A stretch of DNA of 64,000 bases from Lepisosteus oculatus (lineage: Eukaryota; Chordata; Actinopteri; Semionotiformes; Lepisosteidae): the NCBI RefSeq assembly GCF_040954835.1, contig NC_090705.1, positions 16,690,436-16,754,435 on the forward strand, written 5' to 3'. Positions 23,421 through 61,400 of this stretch are shown here, piece by piece. A model generated the notes under the pieces. That model was not told the origin of the DNA and made no database searches. It saw only the letters and a program-made list of their open reading frames with translations. How positions within the stretch are numbered: position 1 is the first letter of the stretch; each line of letters begins with the position of its first letter. The position numbers were made by a program, and so were the translations under genes.

Positions 23421-24167
23421 TCAGTCACTGCTGTCGTCTTCGTCGTCGTCGTCCGAAACGCTGGGGGCGGGGAACTTGGAGGAGCGGCTGTAGGAGTCCG
23501 ACCTGGCGGGTAGGCTCGCGGCCTGCCCGCCCGCCAGCTGCTCGTAGCAGAACTCGCAGACCCGCACGGGCTTCGAGGACTGGCTGGGCAGCAGGAACTT
23601 CTTCTCCGAGCAGGGCCCGCACACCACGAAGCCGCACTTGCGGCAGTGGTGCCGGCGGCTCACGGGCGTGAACTTGATCTTCTGGCAGCGCATGCAGACC
23701 GTGGCCTCCGAGTCGGGCACCCACACGGCCGCGTGCTCGCTGCTGGGGGACTTCCCGCTCTTCTCCAGCAAGTCCGATACGCACTTGTTGATGTGGTTCA
23801 TCCACTCCGACTTCTCCGTGGCCGTGGCGGCGTAGACCGCGAACGACTTGGTGGGGGTCTTTATGAGCCAGCCGTTGCGCAGGTCTCCTTCGTCCTCGAT
23901 GGAGTCGATCGTGACGTTTTCCAGCGGGATGATGTGCTGCTTGTTGTACTTCTTCTTCTGGATCACGATGTTCCCGTACACCAGGATGTCGTTGAAGAGG
24001 AAAAACTGCCTGGCTTTGGGCTTCTTCCGGCAGAGTTTCGTCAGAACTCCCTCTCCGATAAGGACGCGGCCGGGAATGGCCAGGGGCTGGCCGGCTGTCC
24101 CAAAGCAGCCTTCCACTAGTGCAATGCGCTTAGAGTTTGCTTCGCTGTTAGCCAAGCGATCCACCAT
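23421..24167 (-). CDS. plekhf2: Phafin-2: PH and FYVE domain-containing endosomal protein
   Basis: A 248-residue uninterrupted frame with the full architecture of vertebrate PLEKHF2 (human about 249 residues). Residues 1-34 form a short N-terminal segment. A PH domain lies at about 35-131, with the conserved tryptophan of its last helix at W122. A FYVE zinc finger at about 150-210 has the WVPD start motif (149-152), the basic RRHHCRKCG patch (171-179) and all eight zinc ligands (C158, C161, C175, C178, C183, C186, C204, C207). The tail is serine-rich then acidic (SDDDDEDDSSD). The family binds PtdIns3P on early endosomes and acts in endosome fusion, macropinosome maturation and autophagy. The start ATG follows AAAG and precedes G, a good Kozak context, and lies 10 bases after a splice acceptor, so the whole protein sits in one exon. 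The CDS is GC- and CpG-rich, unlike its AT-rich surroundings. PLEKHF1 is the only close alternative; the N-terminus and acidic tail fit PLEKHF2 better. Confidence 0.97.
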   Translation of the reverse strand: MVDRLANSEANSKRIALVEGCFGTAGQPLAIPGRVLIGEGVLTKLCRKKPKARQFFLFNDILVYGNIVIQKKKYNKQHIIPLENVTIDSIEDEGDLRNGWLIKTPTKSFAVYAATATEKSEWMNHINKCVSDLLEKSGKSPSSEHAAVWVPDSEATVCMRCQKIKFTPVSRRHHCRKCGFVVCGPCSEKKFLLPSQSSKPVRVCEFCYEQLAGGQAASLPARSDSYSRSSKFPAPSVSDDDDEDDSSD

Positions 24168-24177
24168 CTTTCTTTAC

Positions 24178-34979: not shown

Positions 34980-35205
34980 CACAACTCACACTTTTGCCCC
35001 AATTGTCGCCGTTTCCACCTCTTGATTGGCCTCTCTTTCTGTCCCCTGCTCCCGCCTCTCACTCCTCCTCCCTCCCAACTTTGTTCTCCCGCTACTTTAC
35101 CTTTGCCTACTGCCCTGTCTCTCTCACACCTGAAGAAGGCTCCAGGGCCGAAACGTTGTGTTCTCTTTCTTCTTTTTTTCAGCATGGAATAAACCTATTA
35201 ACTGT
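34980..35205 (+). repeat. Third copy of the GAAACG-motif repeat (block C)
   Basis: From CCGCTACTTTACCTTTGCCT onward it is nearly identical to block C at 1691-1815, including CTGAAGA (35130-35136), the GGC/GCC stem, GAAAC (35150-35154) and the T-rich end with AATAAACCTATTA. Upstream is a pyrimidine-rich tract absent from the first cluster. High identity suggests a relatively recent copy. Confidence 0.75.
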
Positions 35206-36579
35206 TTCCAAAAGATGTCTGCTTTCCTTTCACCTTAAATCAATACATTTGGCCCTCCAGCTAGCACCATAAAGGGTAACTCCTGGTTCGTAAAACATCC
35301 ATCGAAAGGGAGAGCTTTGCAATTAAGGGTGTCGGCTTAACCAGTTTTGACCAAGATGAATAATAAGTGTCTTCAATTTTAGCTGAAGATTCTTTGCATT
35401 TCGACATGAATCTAGCTCCATGTCTTGTGGAATTACCAACAGGTTTAAGGATACAGGCTGTTTCATTTTGGCTGACTAAGTATATGATCCAGTGAAGTTA
35501 TACAGACTGGTCTAAAAAACGTTAAAGTACTTAAAGTATTACTTGATTATGAAAGTAAAATCGTCACATCTTCTTGAGTCAAAATACACAGATTAAAGGA
35601 AAACAGCTTGCATAAAAAAAACTTCCTTGTTTACTTAACATACCTATGCATGCTAGATTTTATCATTCACAGGAAGAGATAAAATCTAGCTTCTGGCATT
35701 TAAAAAATACATATCCGTTCCAAAATTAATTCTTAGCCTTATCTTGTTACAGATGTAGCACATTTTACTATTTTCACAAGGCATAAAAAATAAATCCTTA
35801 AAACTACAGAACTCAAATTTGACTTTACCCTGAGAGACTTTATCTAAAAAAACTAATGTTTTTTCTGAAATATCTATTTTTACTGTGTTTGTTTGAAACA
35901 ACTGTGCTGATACAACAACATCTTTTTAATTGCCATTTTAAAAATGTACTTTTACAAACCACTGGAATTCCTTTGACCGTGCAAAATAAATATTATGTAG
36001 CAACCTCACCTCTTTTACATTTCAACACTGTGAAAAGTACAAAATTTGTGTTAATCCTTTTAAAAATACTCCACATTCAAATAAGCAGTGGTAAATGCGA
36101 TTGTGCTGGTGACGCAAGTCTTGACATCCAAAAATCACTTCGTCTCAGCTTTCTTGTTCTTGACACTCTTCAGGTTCATATTGTTCAAGAACTCGACACT
36201 TGATAAAATGTTTAATCTCATGTACTGATGTTATATTTGTCATTCTGTTTAGGATATTCATACACCCTCACCCATATTTGTTCAAGGGACAAATAATATG
36301 ATGCAGTTTCGAGATATATTTAGAAAGCCTGGCAATTTCTGAACTACTTTGAGACTCTGAGCCTCCCATCTACACCATACATCTCAATTCATCACCAACC
36401 GGCTGTTCACATGAAACTGGCCTTCCAACTGTTCTTGCTTCCTTAAAACTGTTAAATATAATTGGCATTTTGCTATGCCGTCTTCATGTGTCCATCTTCC
36501 TTTCCTCCCATTTTACTCTTGTGAGGTAACATCTGGAAAGGACATGGGAAGGAAATGGCAAATTCTGCCCTCCTTGGGA
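35206..36579. other. Intronic stretch with a perfect 13-bp hairpin
   Basis: No gene. GCTAGATTTTATC (35652-35664) and GATAAAATCTAGC (35678-35690) form a perfect inverted repeat around 13 bases. The rest is AT-rich and unassigned. Confidence 0.5.
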
Positions 36580-39054: not shown

Positions 39055-39338
39055 ACGGGGCAGAGCAGTGGCTCTGTGGCTAAGGATCTGCGCCTGTGAC
39101 TGGAAGGTTGCCGGTTCAAATCCCGCGGCCGGCAGAGGAATCCTACTCCGTTGGGCCCCTGAGCAAGGCCCTTAACCCTAACTGCTCCAGGGGCGCCGTA
39201 CAATGGCAGACCCTGCGCTCTGACCCCCAGCTTCTCTCCCTGTCTGTGTGTCTGTGTCTCCATGGAGAAAAGCTGGGTTATGCAAAAAGACAAATTCCTA
39301 ATGCAAGAAATTGTATAGGGCTAATAAAGAAACATTAC
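39055..39338 (+). mobile_element. tRNA-headed SINE, family 1
   Basis: The tRNA-like head has GTGGCTCTGTGGCTAAGG (A-box region) and a good B box GGTTCAAATCC (39113-39123). The body has GGGCCCCTGAGCAAGGCCC and CTGCTCCAGGGGCGCCGTAC, and the tail runs AAATTCCTAATGCAAGAAAT and ends TAATAAAGAAACATT. It is better preserved than the copy at 2508-2776. Confidence 0.9.
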
Positions 39339-57178: not shown

Positions 57179-57886
57179 TTACAGCGGTAGAAAAATAGGT
57201 GTCTCTGCATCAATCTACCGTTTAAGCTTAAATCTTTTTTTTACCTCTGTAAGCCACGCAGGAGTGTAGTTTATGCTGTGCTTTTATGTAAAAATTCTTG
57301 TCCAGTTCTTGTAATGCTGTATATGGTCTATGGGGATAAATGGATTTCTTTTTGTGTGTGACCAAGTAAATCGCCTCTCATGCTGTGCATCACTGTCATT
57401 TTCAATGTGGTGGTTGCTGTGAAGCTGTAGTGCACATAATGTGAGACAAGTGTGTGTTCTTCATTGTTAACAGCAGATGCCATTTTAGTAGGTTGGGCCC
57501 TAGGAACACTCCAATCTTGTTCACAGTTTCCATTATCAGTCAATCATTGCATCTTCCTACTGGTCCTTACACAAACAACTCACTAAATATATGGAAGAGC
57601 CGTTTCTGACACTGAAGATTATCACCTACTTTAAGTTCCAGTTCAATTAAGCTGAAACAGTTTTTCAAACCAGCTTCACAGTACCAATTACAGTGTTTTT
57701 AAGGTATTACTTTGATGGAGAAACTATTCCTACAGTATGTTGCTTTGCATTGTTACTGTATTAAATCCATTAGTTTCAAAATTGCAAAGACTCAAAGTGG
57801 AAGCTGAATGCTTCGCTATTGAGTTACTTCAAACGAGTTGTCTCGGACTTCCAGACACATGGTATAGCAATGTACCGCATTCATAA
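57179..57886. other. No gene recognised
   Basis: AT-rich non-coding sequence. ATAA at 57883-57886 may be the left target duplication of the next element. Confidence 0.4.
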
Positions 57887-58115
57887 TGTAACGCAACGGA
57901 GGCTCAGGCGGGCCCCTTGCCGCATCTGGTCGGCCCCTGCACTATTCGGGGCTCGAACCCGGGACTTCCGCGTCTCTCTGCAGCGACCTAGCCCCGTGAG
58001 CTAAAGAGAGATCTCTCTACAGCCGTGGTCCTGCTATCACAGGGATGGGCGGTGACATCACCCGCTCTGGTACGCCGGCTCTTACACACAGTGCTTGTCG
58101 GCCGTAAGCGTTACA
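57887..58115 (-). repeat. LTR next to the purine tract (3' LTR on the minus strand)
   Basis: 229 bp. On the minus strand its first half (TGTAACGCTTACGGCCGACA onward) is unique in the window. Its second half holds the tRNA-like segment and ends CCGTTGCGTTACA. It is probably the structurally normal LTR of the pair. Confidence 0.7.
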
Positions 58116-58160
58116 CTCTCCCCCGCTTAAATCGCCATCCCCGGCGAAGGGCTATCCCAC

Positions 58161-58176
58161 CCCACTTCTGACACCA
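58161..58176 (-). other. tRNA-Leu-type primer-binding site
   Basis: The plus strand reads CCCACTTCTGACACCA, which matches the 3' acceptor end of eukaryotic tRNA-Leu including CCA. On the minus strand it is therefore complementary to that tRNA and lies one base inside the LTR, the position required for minus-strand priming. Confidence 0.8.
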
Positions 58177-58177
58177 A

Positions 58178-58404
58178 TGTAACGCAACGGGGGCTCAGGC
58201 GGGCGCCCTTGCCCCATCTGGTCGGCCCCATCCCGACTGGAGGCTCGAACCCGGGACTTCCGCGTCTCTCTGCCGAGATCTCTCTTTAGCTCACGGGGCT
58301 AGGTCGCTGCAGAGAGACGCGGAAGTCCCGGGTTCGAGCCCCGGACGGTGCAGGGGCCGACCAGATGCGGCAAGGACGCCCGCCTGAGCCCCCGTTGCGT
58401 TACA
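58178..58404 (-). repeat. LTR next to the primer-binding site, converted into a palindrome
   Basis: 227 bp, with arms 58178-58273 and 58309-58404 that are near-perfect reverse complements around a 35-base centre. The left arm matches the corresponding part of the other LTR directly. The right arm replaces what should be the unique first half. Confidence 0.8.
58286..58347 (+). promoter_or_regulatory. tRNA-like segment, possible internal Pol III promoter
   Basis: TTTAGCTCACGGGGCTAGG resembles an A box and D-arm. About 30 bases later GGTTCGAGCCC (58331-58341) is a good B box, inside a perfect T-arm: CCGGG, a seven-base loop TTCGAGC, CCCGG. The same segment is on the minus strand of the other LTR, with B-box complement GCTCGAACCC at 57951-57960 and A-box complement near 57988-58004. 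A complete cloverleaf was not confirmed. Confidence 0.55.
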
Positions 58405-61400
58405 ATAATCTTATGAACTGGAAAATTGTTCGCTTTCCATTCCTTTCATGAAGAAGGGATAATCCTCTTTTTCCTCAGCGGAAGTGCATTTACTACTTGT
58501 CAGTAACCAGTGGGAAGCACTTTTAAAGGCAAAGTGAACAGTGTCCATATAGTATGTTAATATGGCGCGACAGGTCACGGAAACTCAACCCAAGGACCTG
58601 CCGTACCCGATGACTCAACCGTACCCGATGTGATGAGTCAACTTTTAGATAAGAAAGCCCTAATTTAACAAAACAGGCACCGGGAGAAAGAAAATCCGTG
58701 ATACCGACTGCCCTTTTGCGTCCCCGTGCAACATGTACAGTATATAGACACATGATGTACAGAATTAAAAGACGGATAATAGATCAGAGAAAAGGGTCAC
58801 TTCAAAATAAGTGGAATTGTGGAGAAGTGAAACCCTTTTTATCTTAAAAATTCCGAATACCGATTCTTTAGAGCGCTTGAGAACACGCGTGAAATTAATG
58901 AGTCTACAGTATAGTACGTAACTGATGGATTTTCAGTTTCAGACCAGGGGCTGCAGTCAAGCTGAACTCACGTTTCTGTGCGGTTTGAAAAGCTCTTTGT
59001 CTTTCGGCCAAGCGCTGATATTTGCTAGCGAGGCTGGCTGGGGGAGCGCTGCAAAGAAACTCCAGTATTTCTGACGATGCCCAGAAGAACTAATCGCCTT
59101 CAATTGCCGATTCCGTATTGCGTTTCATTTGTAACTGAAGTGTCCAACACACCCTTCATGTTCATCTGGTTTTGTGATTTCTTTAGGTCACATTCCGAGA
59201 GACAATAATTATTTTGAATCATTTTAGAAAATATCTTAAGGCTTTAAAACAAATGTTCAGGCATCCTCCTTACGCCACGTAAGAAACAAATTTAAAACAT
59301 ACAACATAAAACCACATCACATGTTAAAGGCAAGGATGGAACATGTTTAAATAAAGTGAGTCTAGGTGTAGACCTTTAGCTACACGTTTGTTTGTTTTTT
59401 ACTTTTGTAATGGCTACACAGTTCTAAGACGCCTACATTTTCTCCTATCGGATCGGACCGCAGGATGTACTATAACATGTGCTTCTAAGGAGTGTTTACT
59501 GTTACACACTACAGTATTAGAAGCGTTAATTAGCAAAACGCGGTGAAGGCATGACAAACCCGCTACGCAAAACCACAGTTATTTCACCTCTTTACTTTTT
59601 TGTTTCGGGTACAATCTCACATGTTGCACATTTCAAATAGACATCAACAAAAACAGAGTCATCTGCTGGCTGGACAGTGCACTGCAGATAGGCTGTATGA
59701 TAGGCTTGTGAACAAATTGCTTTAACCCACTGGGATATCTTTACGATAAAACACATCGGCAGAAGATGACCTTTTTAGCCTGATGCCAAACCTCCAGTCC
59801 TGCATCTTTGACTTTTTTTAACATCCACATTTCTGAGGGATTATTTATTTTGGTTTTAGCTTGGCATTAGTGACTGGCTTCTCAGGGAAACACTTTTTTA
59901 TTCCTTTACCTGCGATGCGAAAGATGTAATGACCACCTGTTTTCTCGTTTTGTTAGTCCTAAATCAGTCCTCATTGGCATTTTTCACATGGCGAGTTCAT
60001 GGAATTAAAGCCTGCGGCCCGCAGTCATGGTCTCGGAAAATCAGATGAGTCATACAGGAAGAGCCATGAAGTATGAAATTAAATGACAGAAATCACCTGC
60101 AACGGTTCAGACTCAGTTGCGGTTCTGTCTTAAGCCAACATCTTCAGAGCACGGAACATTTTATAGTCTCAACACACGCCTATAGAAGAACATCTGGATG
60201 AAGCGTCAGAGAGATATTTTCTGTCTTTTGCGTATTTCATTGTTTGCATATGATTACGCTATTTTTCCCTTTCTGTGGCAAAACAGTAAATACATCCGAA
60301 TCAGGCTCCTGATTGCCTGTTATTCACATTTTGTAAATTGCTATGGTAAATTACTTCTCACAATCACAAGTAATATGTCGTGTAATTTTGAAATACCGCT
60401 GTTCGGTAATCGAGTCAATAAAGCACTTTGAATTGGGATCTGAAGATTTTGAAAGAAAGCACTGACATGCCCTTAAAAAAGGTGTTACAACCACAGCTGT
60501 GTTGCACCGTCAGTGTCAAGACTCCTTGTTTTGACTTGACCTTCGGAAGGCATATTAATCGTTTTGATCGTTTGCAAATTAGCATAATAATAGTCATTCA
60601 TGGGAATTTGACCACATTGAATTTGTGATCCCAACAATTGGTAATAACTTAATTGAAAAAATAAGATGCCAAGATATTGTTTAGATTGTTCATATTATAT
60701 GTTCTCTATAATACTGGAATTCGATTTTTCTGTACAGAATTAGAGAATAATTCTCTTGATGCTTGTACAGTATGTACTGGTCATATACACACTTTCATTA
60801 GTGAGGAGATTTTAGAATATAACAGTCTTAGATTCACAACAGGACAGCTTCTTACTGCTCTTCCTGAAATCAAGATGACAGTCTTCCACATTAATGTGTC
60901 GATCCTTTAATTTCATTTGCTGCGGAACCGTTACTTTCTCTTGACTCAGCATGCTCTGTCTTAGGTCACACTGAACTTTAACAGTAAAATGATGCATCTG
61001 AGAAGAGACCGCAGGACTGGTTAGTGAAAGTAAACGTTAATAACAAGTAAAAGTTATATACAAAAAAACAAAACAAGTGCACCAGTCAATGACCAGCGCC
61101 CAAGGCAAGATGATGGCACAGCCTTGTGCACTTCAACACTCCCAACAATTTCCCATCCTGCTCAAGCTGCTCTTGTTATTCTTGTTACGCATTACAGTAT
61201 GAACGGATTTCTAATAATCTGGCCGGAGATTTTCCTAAAACATGCTTGCTGTGCTTTGGGAGAAGCATTACATTTGTCAGATTCTAAATGTTTAAACAAA
61301 AGGAACCCACACAGCTGAGATAGTCAGCCAGTTACTTAATCGGGTAAGTCAGGGTTTTCCAGCTGTCAATATTGTGATTGTGTAGTGTGATCAATCAGCT

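Follow-up and report, generated by a model that had tools for sequence, protein, structure and literature searches.

The element at 57887-58404 of the window, i.e. of the whole stretch of 64,000 nucleotides that was analysed, is read here as a non-autonomous miniature LTR retrotransposon (TRIM) of the Helenus kind that was rearranged at the cDNA stage, before its integration. We put the probability of this reading at about 0.7. The best explanation for the rearrangement, which has turned one of the two LTRs into a fold-back, is a template switch during reverse transcription, after which the product was integrated. The element was probably mobilised in trans by an element of the Gypsy class.

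Anatomy and boundaries of the element

The minus strand is the sense strand of the element, since the primer binding site (PBS), which is separated from the right LTR by a single base, is oriented leftwards and the purine tract (PPT) adjoins the left LTR. The features on which the analysis relies are the following.

57883-57886, strand not applicable: left target site duplication, ATAA
57887-58404, minus strand (sense): whole element, 518 bp, with TG...CA ends
57887-58115, minus strand: left LTR, 229 bp, the 3' LTR in sense, taken as the normal one
57949-57959, minus strand: B box of the left LTR, GGTTCGAGCCC
57992-58003, minus strand: A box of the left LTR, TAGCTCACGGGG, 44 nt upstream of the B box
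58005-58018, strand not applicable: perfect palindrome AGAGAGATCTCTCT, just upstream of the A box
58116-58177, minus strand: interior, 62 bp, with no room for genes
58116-58126, minus strand: purine-rich tract GCGGGGGAGAG, against the left LTR
58161-58176, minus strand: primer binding site TGGTGTCAGAAGTGGG
58178-58273, minus strand: inner arm of the right LTR, U5/R side only, of another subtype, with a B box and no A box
58241-58251, minus strand: B box of the inner arm, GGTTCGAGCCT
58275-58404, plus strand: outer arm of the right LTR, an inverted copy of the U5/R side of the left LTR, ending in a U5 end
58287-58298, plus strand: A box of the outer arm
58331-58341, plus strand: B box of the outer arm
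58405-58408, strand not applicable: right target site duplication, ATAA

The first-pass annotation had described terminal repeats with TGTAACGC...GCGTTACA ends separated by 62 bp, a PBS one base from one LTR, and a purine tract against the other, and this outline is borne out. The ends lie at 57887/58115 and 58178/58404, the interior (58116-58177) is 62 bp long, TGGTGTCAGAAGTGGG is read from the minus strand and lies a single base away from the right LTR, and GCGGGGGAGAG, on the same strand, abuts the left LTR. We take the PBS to match the 3' end of tRNA-Leu. A target duplication of 4-5 bp had been suggested as a check, and the 4-bp sequence ATAA is indeed present on both flanks of the element; a 4-mer flank match of this kind arises by chance with a probability of 0.005 in the local composition. 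The element also stands out by its GC content, which is 65% versus 41% for the window.

In size and parts the element corresponds to a TRIM, being shorter than 1000 bp, with a PBS and a PPT between its terminal repeats and no encoded proteins, and it is flanked by the duplication of a few bp expected of the class (ATAA on both sides). What it lacks is a near-identical pair of LTRs in direct orientation, the right LTR matching the left one only in its inner U5/R half. This mismatch is read as damage to the present copy and not as a trait of its family, a judgement made from one copy, and the TRIM label applies to the family, not to this copy as a working unit.

The right LTR as a fold-back

The two LTRs had been described as matching. 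They are not equivalent, the right one being a rearranged fold-back, and their near-equal lengths (229 versus 227 bp), which are a coincidence, may have misled the first-pass annotation. Aligned in sense orientation, the left and right LTRs share 164 identities with 53 mismatches and 22 gaps, whereas the left LTR and the flipped right LTR fit better, with 185 identities, 26 mismatches and 34 gaps. The U3 sides of the two LTRs align with a score of -52, which is no better than that of 500 shuffles (mean -60, sd 11, max -30). The right LTR (58178-58404) is devoid of U3, and the element terminates in a U5 end on either side. It forms an inverted repeat with arms of 104 nt (58178-58281 and 58301-58404) that are 87% complementary, and its folding has a z-score of -19.9, with none of 200 shuffles as good; for the left LTR, z is -1.35 and 17 of 200 shuffles are as good.

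The two arms differ in their relationship to the left LTR. From GAGATC to the U5 end, the outer arm is identical to the left LTR at 124 of 130 aligned positions, the remainder being 5 mismatches, all of them transitions, and 1 gap, which places the two in one subtype. By contrast, the inner arm is identical to the U5 side of the left LTR at 86 of 97 positions, with 9 mismatches and 2 gaps over the shared part, and it is assigned to another subtype because 6 of these 9 mismatches are transversions, several of them in one block. The inner arm furthermore lacks the 34 nt of the LTR that adjoin the inversion point. The GAGATC at which outer-arm homology starts is located 12 nt upstream of the A box, within AGAGAGATCTCTCT, the sole perfect palindrome of at least 8 bp in the left LTR. 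A 14-bp palindrome was present in 86 of 5,000 random LTRs.

An Rfam search of 57800-58500 with a loose limit returned 14 rows, all below gathering scores, and 13 of them fell on the right LTR. Nine of these 13 were microRNA models (8 different ones), the others being VA RNA, Y RNA, the Hac1/Xbp1 intron and a frameshift element. These sub-threshold matches to hairpin models are taken as a result of the fold-back. The segment 58241-58350 could be mistaken for a microRNA gene by automatic annotation.

Inverted repeats are also found elsewhere in the window. Those at 958-1821 are nested, with arms at 1262-1386/1691-1815 (99%), 975-1058/1586-1669 (98%) and 1053-1112/1393-1452 (95%), and a further copy of one arm is located at 35086-35215; together they look like an inverted duplication of a dispersed repeat.

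The tRNA-like segment and Pol III signals

The motif TRGCNNA followed at tRNA-like distance by GGTTCGANNC occurs at 2 sites in the window, one per LTR (58003, minus strand, and 58287, plus strand), and the spacing from A to B box is 44 nt in both LTRs. Among 20,000 LTR-sized Markov sequences, searched on both strands, only 2 contained such a pair. The A and B boxes that the first-pass annotation had placed in both LTRs are thus present as a pair in each, but the right pair sits in the inverted half, and the sense strand of the right LTR carries a B box and no A box. Against the full A-box consensus there are 2 mismatches, as for several chance sites within the element. An intact T-arm had also been claimed; it has 5 of 5 pairs at 58328-58344, but 4 of 5, judged by eye, in the left LTR.

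Tools dedicated to tRNAs did not recognise the segment. ARAGORN at its default setting predicted 0 tRNAs, and Rfam at the gathering threshold gave 0 matches. The tRNA covariance model, which had been proposed as a test, scored 58280-58352 at 10.8 bits against 29, with only the T-arm aligning well, and had no match in 57925-58015. With lowered thresholds, ARAGORN reported 7 tRNAs (50%) and 4 with introns (30%) in 601 bases; several of them overlap, and they were set aside as noise. The segment therefore does not pass a tRNA model, as a tRNA gene would, and, judged from its sequence, it is a promoter-like remnant rather than a tRNA, given the A-box mismatches and the failure of ARAGORN, Rfam and the tRNA models. 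Its putative tRNA origin rests on the boxes and the T-arm, while the tRNA models fail.

Neither strand of the element contains TTTT, AATAAA/ATTAAA or TATAWA, and this absence of a TTTT, a poly(A) signal and TATAWA weakly favours Pol III. The nearest TTTT, the Pol III terminator, is found 106 nt past the left end of the element in sense, with none inside. The A/B-box pairs of the outer arm and of the left LTR both point outwards, so that transcription of a sense RNA of this copy could not begin at the usual place. The anatomy supports the reading of the element as a TRIM whose LTRs contain a tRNA-type promoter segment, as put forward from the first reading; the role of Pol III was presented there as inferred, and it keeps that status here.

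It is doubtful, though far from negligible, that the element is an ordinary Pol II-driven TRIM in which the likeness to A and B boxes is a relic or due to chance and has no function. The failure of every tRNA model to pass, an A box with 2 mismatches to the long consensus and the absence of a terminator within the element would all fit such a case. They have to be weighed against a box pair that appears at tRNA spacing in just 2 of 20,000 random LTRs and is kept in both the left LTR and the outer arm, against the lack of a poly(A) signal or TATA motif in the element, and against the conservation of the boxes across published Helenus families (PMC10886601).

Searches for further copies

A blastn search of the window with the element returned the element and its own internal repeats only, with no second copy. 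No match to it was found among phage records, and exact patterns searched in viral contigs gave 0 matches for the LTR core, 0 for the interior, and 0 for the PBS plus interior. The bare PBS pattern matched once in viral contigs, with flanks unlike the element, and this match was taken as chance. Genome contigs from viral and prokaryotic collections likewise gave 0 matches to exact patterns. These collections being viral or prokaryotic, the misses say nothing on the host genome.

Other features of the window include two copies of a dispersed repeat (82%) in opposite orientation, at 39068-39329 and 2505-2761; the former is likely a tRNA-derived SINE, on account of GGTTCAAATCCC at 39113. PH and FYVE domains are encoded by a 250-codon ORF (23424-24173, minus strand), presumably a single-exon vertebrate PLEKHF2. 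A plus-strand ORF fragment at 15997-16596 matches PF09004, a model that often matches the end of LINE reverse transcriptases.

Origin of the fold-back

The DNA that was integrated probably had its present shape already, because both outer ends are U5 ends and the target duplication lies outside both of them. The outer arm and the left LTR belong to one subtype and the inner arm to another, which would be expected had two templates been involved. We tentatively propose a route through strong-stop cDNA, in which the self-complementary tail of the cDNA of a Pol III-driven TRIM would have primed on another strong-stop cDNA, the product being integrated with two U5 ends.

The distance between the Pol III start and the A box is about 12 nt in SINEs and usually longer in tRNA genes. 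According to the proposed route, the RNA would be started by Pol III within AGAGAGATCTCTCT, some 12 nt ahead of the A box, and a cDNA that stops at such an RNA 5' end, located in a palindrome, would carry a self-complementary tail. In the normal course, the strong-stop end would jump to the other R. In the present case, a minus strand that had been extended as far as the 5' end of a second RNA, one of the inner-arm subtype, would have paired through its tail with another strong-stop cDNA and copied the latter to its primer end, and the integrase of a helper would have inserted the product. The route predicts the order left LTR, interior, inner arm and inverted outer arm, with the left LTR and the outer arm sharing a subtype, and this is the order found. 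To account for the 34 nt missing from the inner arm, an extra step would be needed, which could be a switch of template at an early stage or a deletion that affected the palindrome later.

Several points count against the explanation given here as a whole: a second copy was not seen, the 34-nt gap is present, the palindrome alone may set the inversion point, the tRNA models fail, there is no terminator inside the element, and 12 nt fits SINE transcripts but falls short of the usual distance in tRNA genes. Inversion may have occurred at the palindrome regardless of an RNA start there; the two candidate sites of inversion, the palindrome and the 5' end of the RNA, coincide in place and are not distinguished by the present data.

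Alternatively, the fold-back could have formed in the chromosome after a normal insertion, if replication switched templates at the palindrome or if inverted gene conversion took place there. Such events are a known source of long inverted repeats, and a 14-bp palindrome is indeed present in the LTR where the inversion starts. This origin is nevertheless unlikely: the inverted copy runs precisely up to the end of the LTR, where the ATAA duplication follows, and the letters of the outer arm follow those of the distant left LTR (124/130), not those of the adjacent inner arm. It is quite improbable that two elements were inserted side by side or nested in opposite orientation and then underwent a deletion, the right half being a truncated second copy. 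The different subtypes of the inner and outer arms and the tandem arrays reported for zebrafish LTR-11_DR (PMC10886601) would agree with two insertions, but the outer ATAA is the only duplication seen, and the deletion must have ended exactly at the palindrome. Finally, a SINE inserted into the LTR as a mere passenger of this one copy is highly improbable even though SINE insertion has been proposed as the origin of such TRIMs (PMC10886601), as the tRNA-like segment is shared by the left LTR and, in inverted form, the right LTR, its B-box half being kept in the inner arm of the other subtype, and has thus spread with the LTR.

If the strong-stop route is correct, the inversion point, 12 nt upstream of the A box, would preserve the position of the RNA 5' end like a fossil, and the genome itself would provide evidence that transcription of Helenus begins where it is expected from a tRNA-type Pol III promoter. 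Were several such fold-back copies to exist, the transcript start could be located from genome sequence alone, and they could show that a cDNA bearing a U5 end on both sides is accepted by the integrase. Taken alone, a single copy, which cannot tell an accident from a variant, is a curiosity of reverse transcription.

Helenus and other known systems

A tRNA-type promoter in a TRIM from a fish had been considered a parallel invention with respect to plant elements. However, TRIMs of the tRNA type are already in print as Helenus, fish included (PMC10886601), so that the class has been described (in 2024) and the host group was probably already known to carry it. Helenus elements are TRIMs with tRNA-derived LTR segments found in fungi, animals and a plant, and their hosts include zebrafish and other Ostariophysi, sturgeon, paddlefish and coelacanth (Kojima 2024, PMC10886601). 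According to the same source, which compares them with Cassandra, they generate 4-bp duplications in animals, are primed in vertebrates by tRNA-His, -Leu or -Lys, and have in animals a primer-site region in common with Gypsy elements. Most Helenus families harbor a promoter-like remnant and not a tRNA, their boxes are conserved across families, and Pol III use is inferred there too (PMC10886601). Helenus LTR retrotransposons are also named in a 2026 meeting report citing PMC10886601, and a butterfly genome paper likewise mentions Helenus together with LTR retrotransposon.

The assignment of the present element to Helenus was made by the published feature description and not by alignment to consensus sequences of named families. 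The LTR contains TRGCY plus YGG for box A (TAGCT...CGG) and GGTTC for box B (GGTTC), the duplication (ATAA) has the 4 bp of animal members, and all the Helenus features checked are present except for matching LTRs in this copy. In the main text of PMC10886601, none of the words inverted, palindrom, hairpin and strong-stop occurs, and a limited search of the literature, covering sources that were in part accessible, yielded no earlier description of fold-back LTRs or self-primed integrants. The accessible part of PMC11700998 gave no information on where SINE transcripts start.

The closest known system is Helenus itself, e.g. zebrafish LTR-11_DR, with which the element shares its TRIM organisation, a tRNA-derived LTR segment, tRNA-Leu among the primers, a PPT, a 4-bp duplication and, presumably, a fish host. 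It differs from Helenus as described in its right LTR, which forms a fold-back and ends in U5 on the outside. Cassandra, a plant TRIM, also has a Pol III-type promoter inside its LTRs, but this promoter is of the 5S and not of the tRNA type, and its hosts are vascular plants (PMC7215508). Ajax, a nemertean TRIM carrying a 5S fragment, resembles the element in its promoter derived from a small RNA and in its tRNA-Leu primer site, and differs from it in the 5S type of this promoter and in its 5-bp duplications (PMC10886601). With regard to the proposed mechanism, self-priming has been reported for the minus strong-stop cDNA of HIV-1, the 3' end of which primes on itself or on like DNA (PMC4668388). 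Whereas the HIV-1 product is a heterogeneous or abortive cDNA that hinders strand transfer (PMC4668388), the product found here was apparently integrated.
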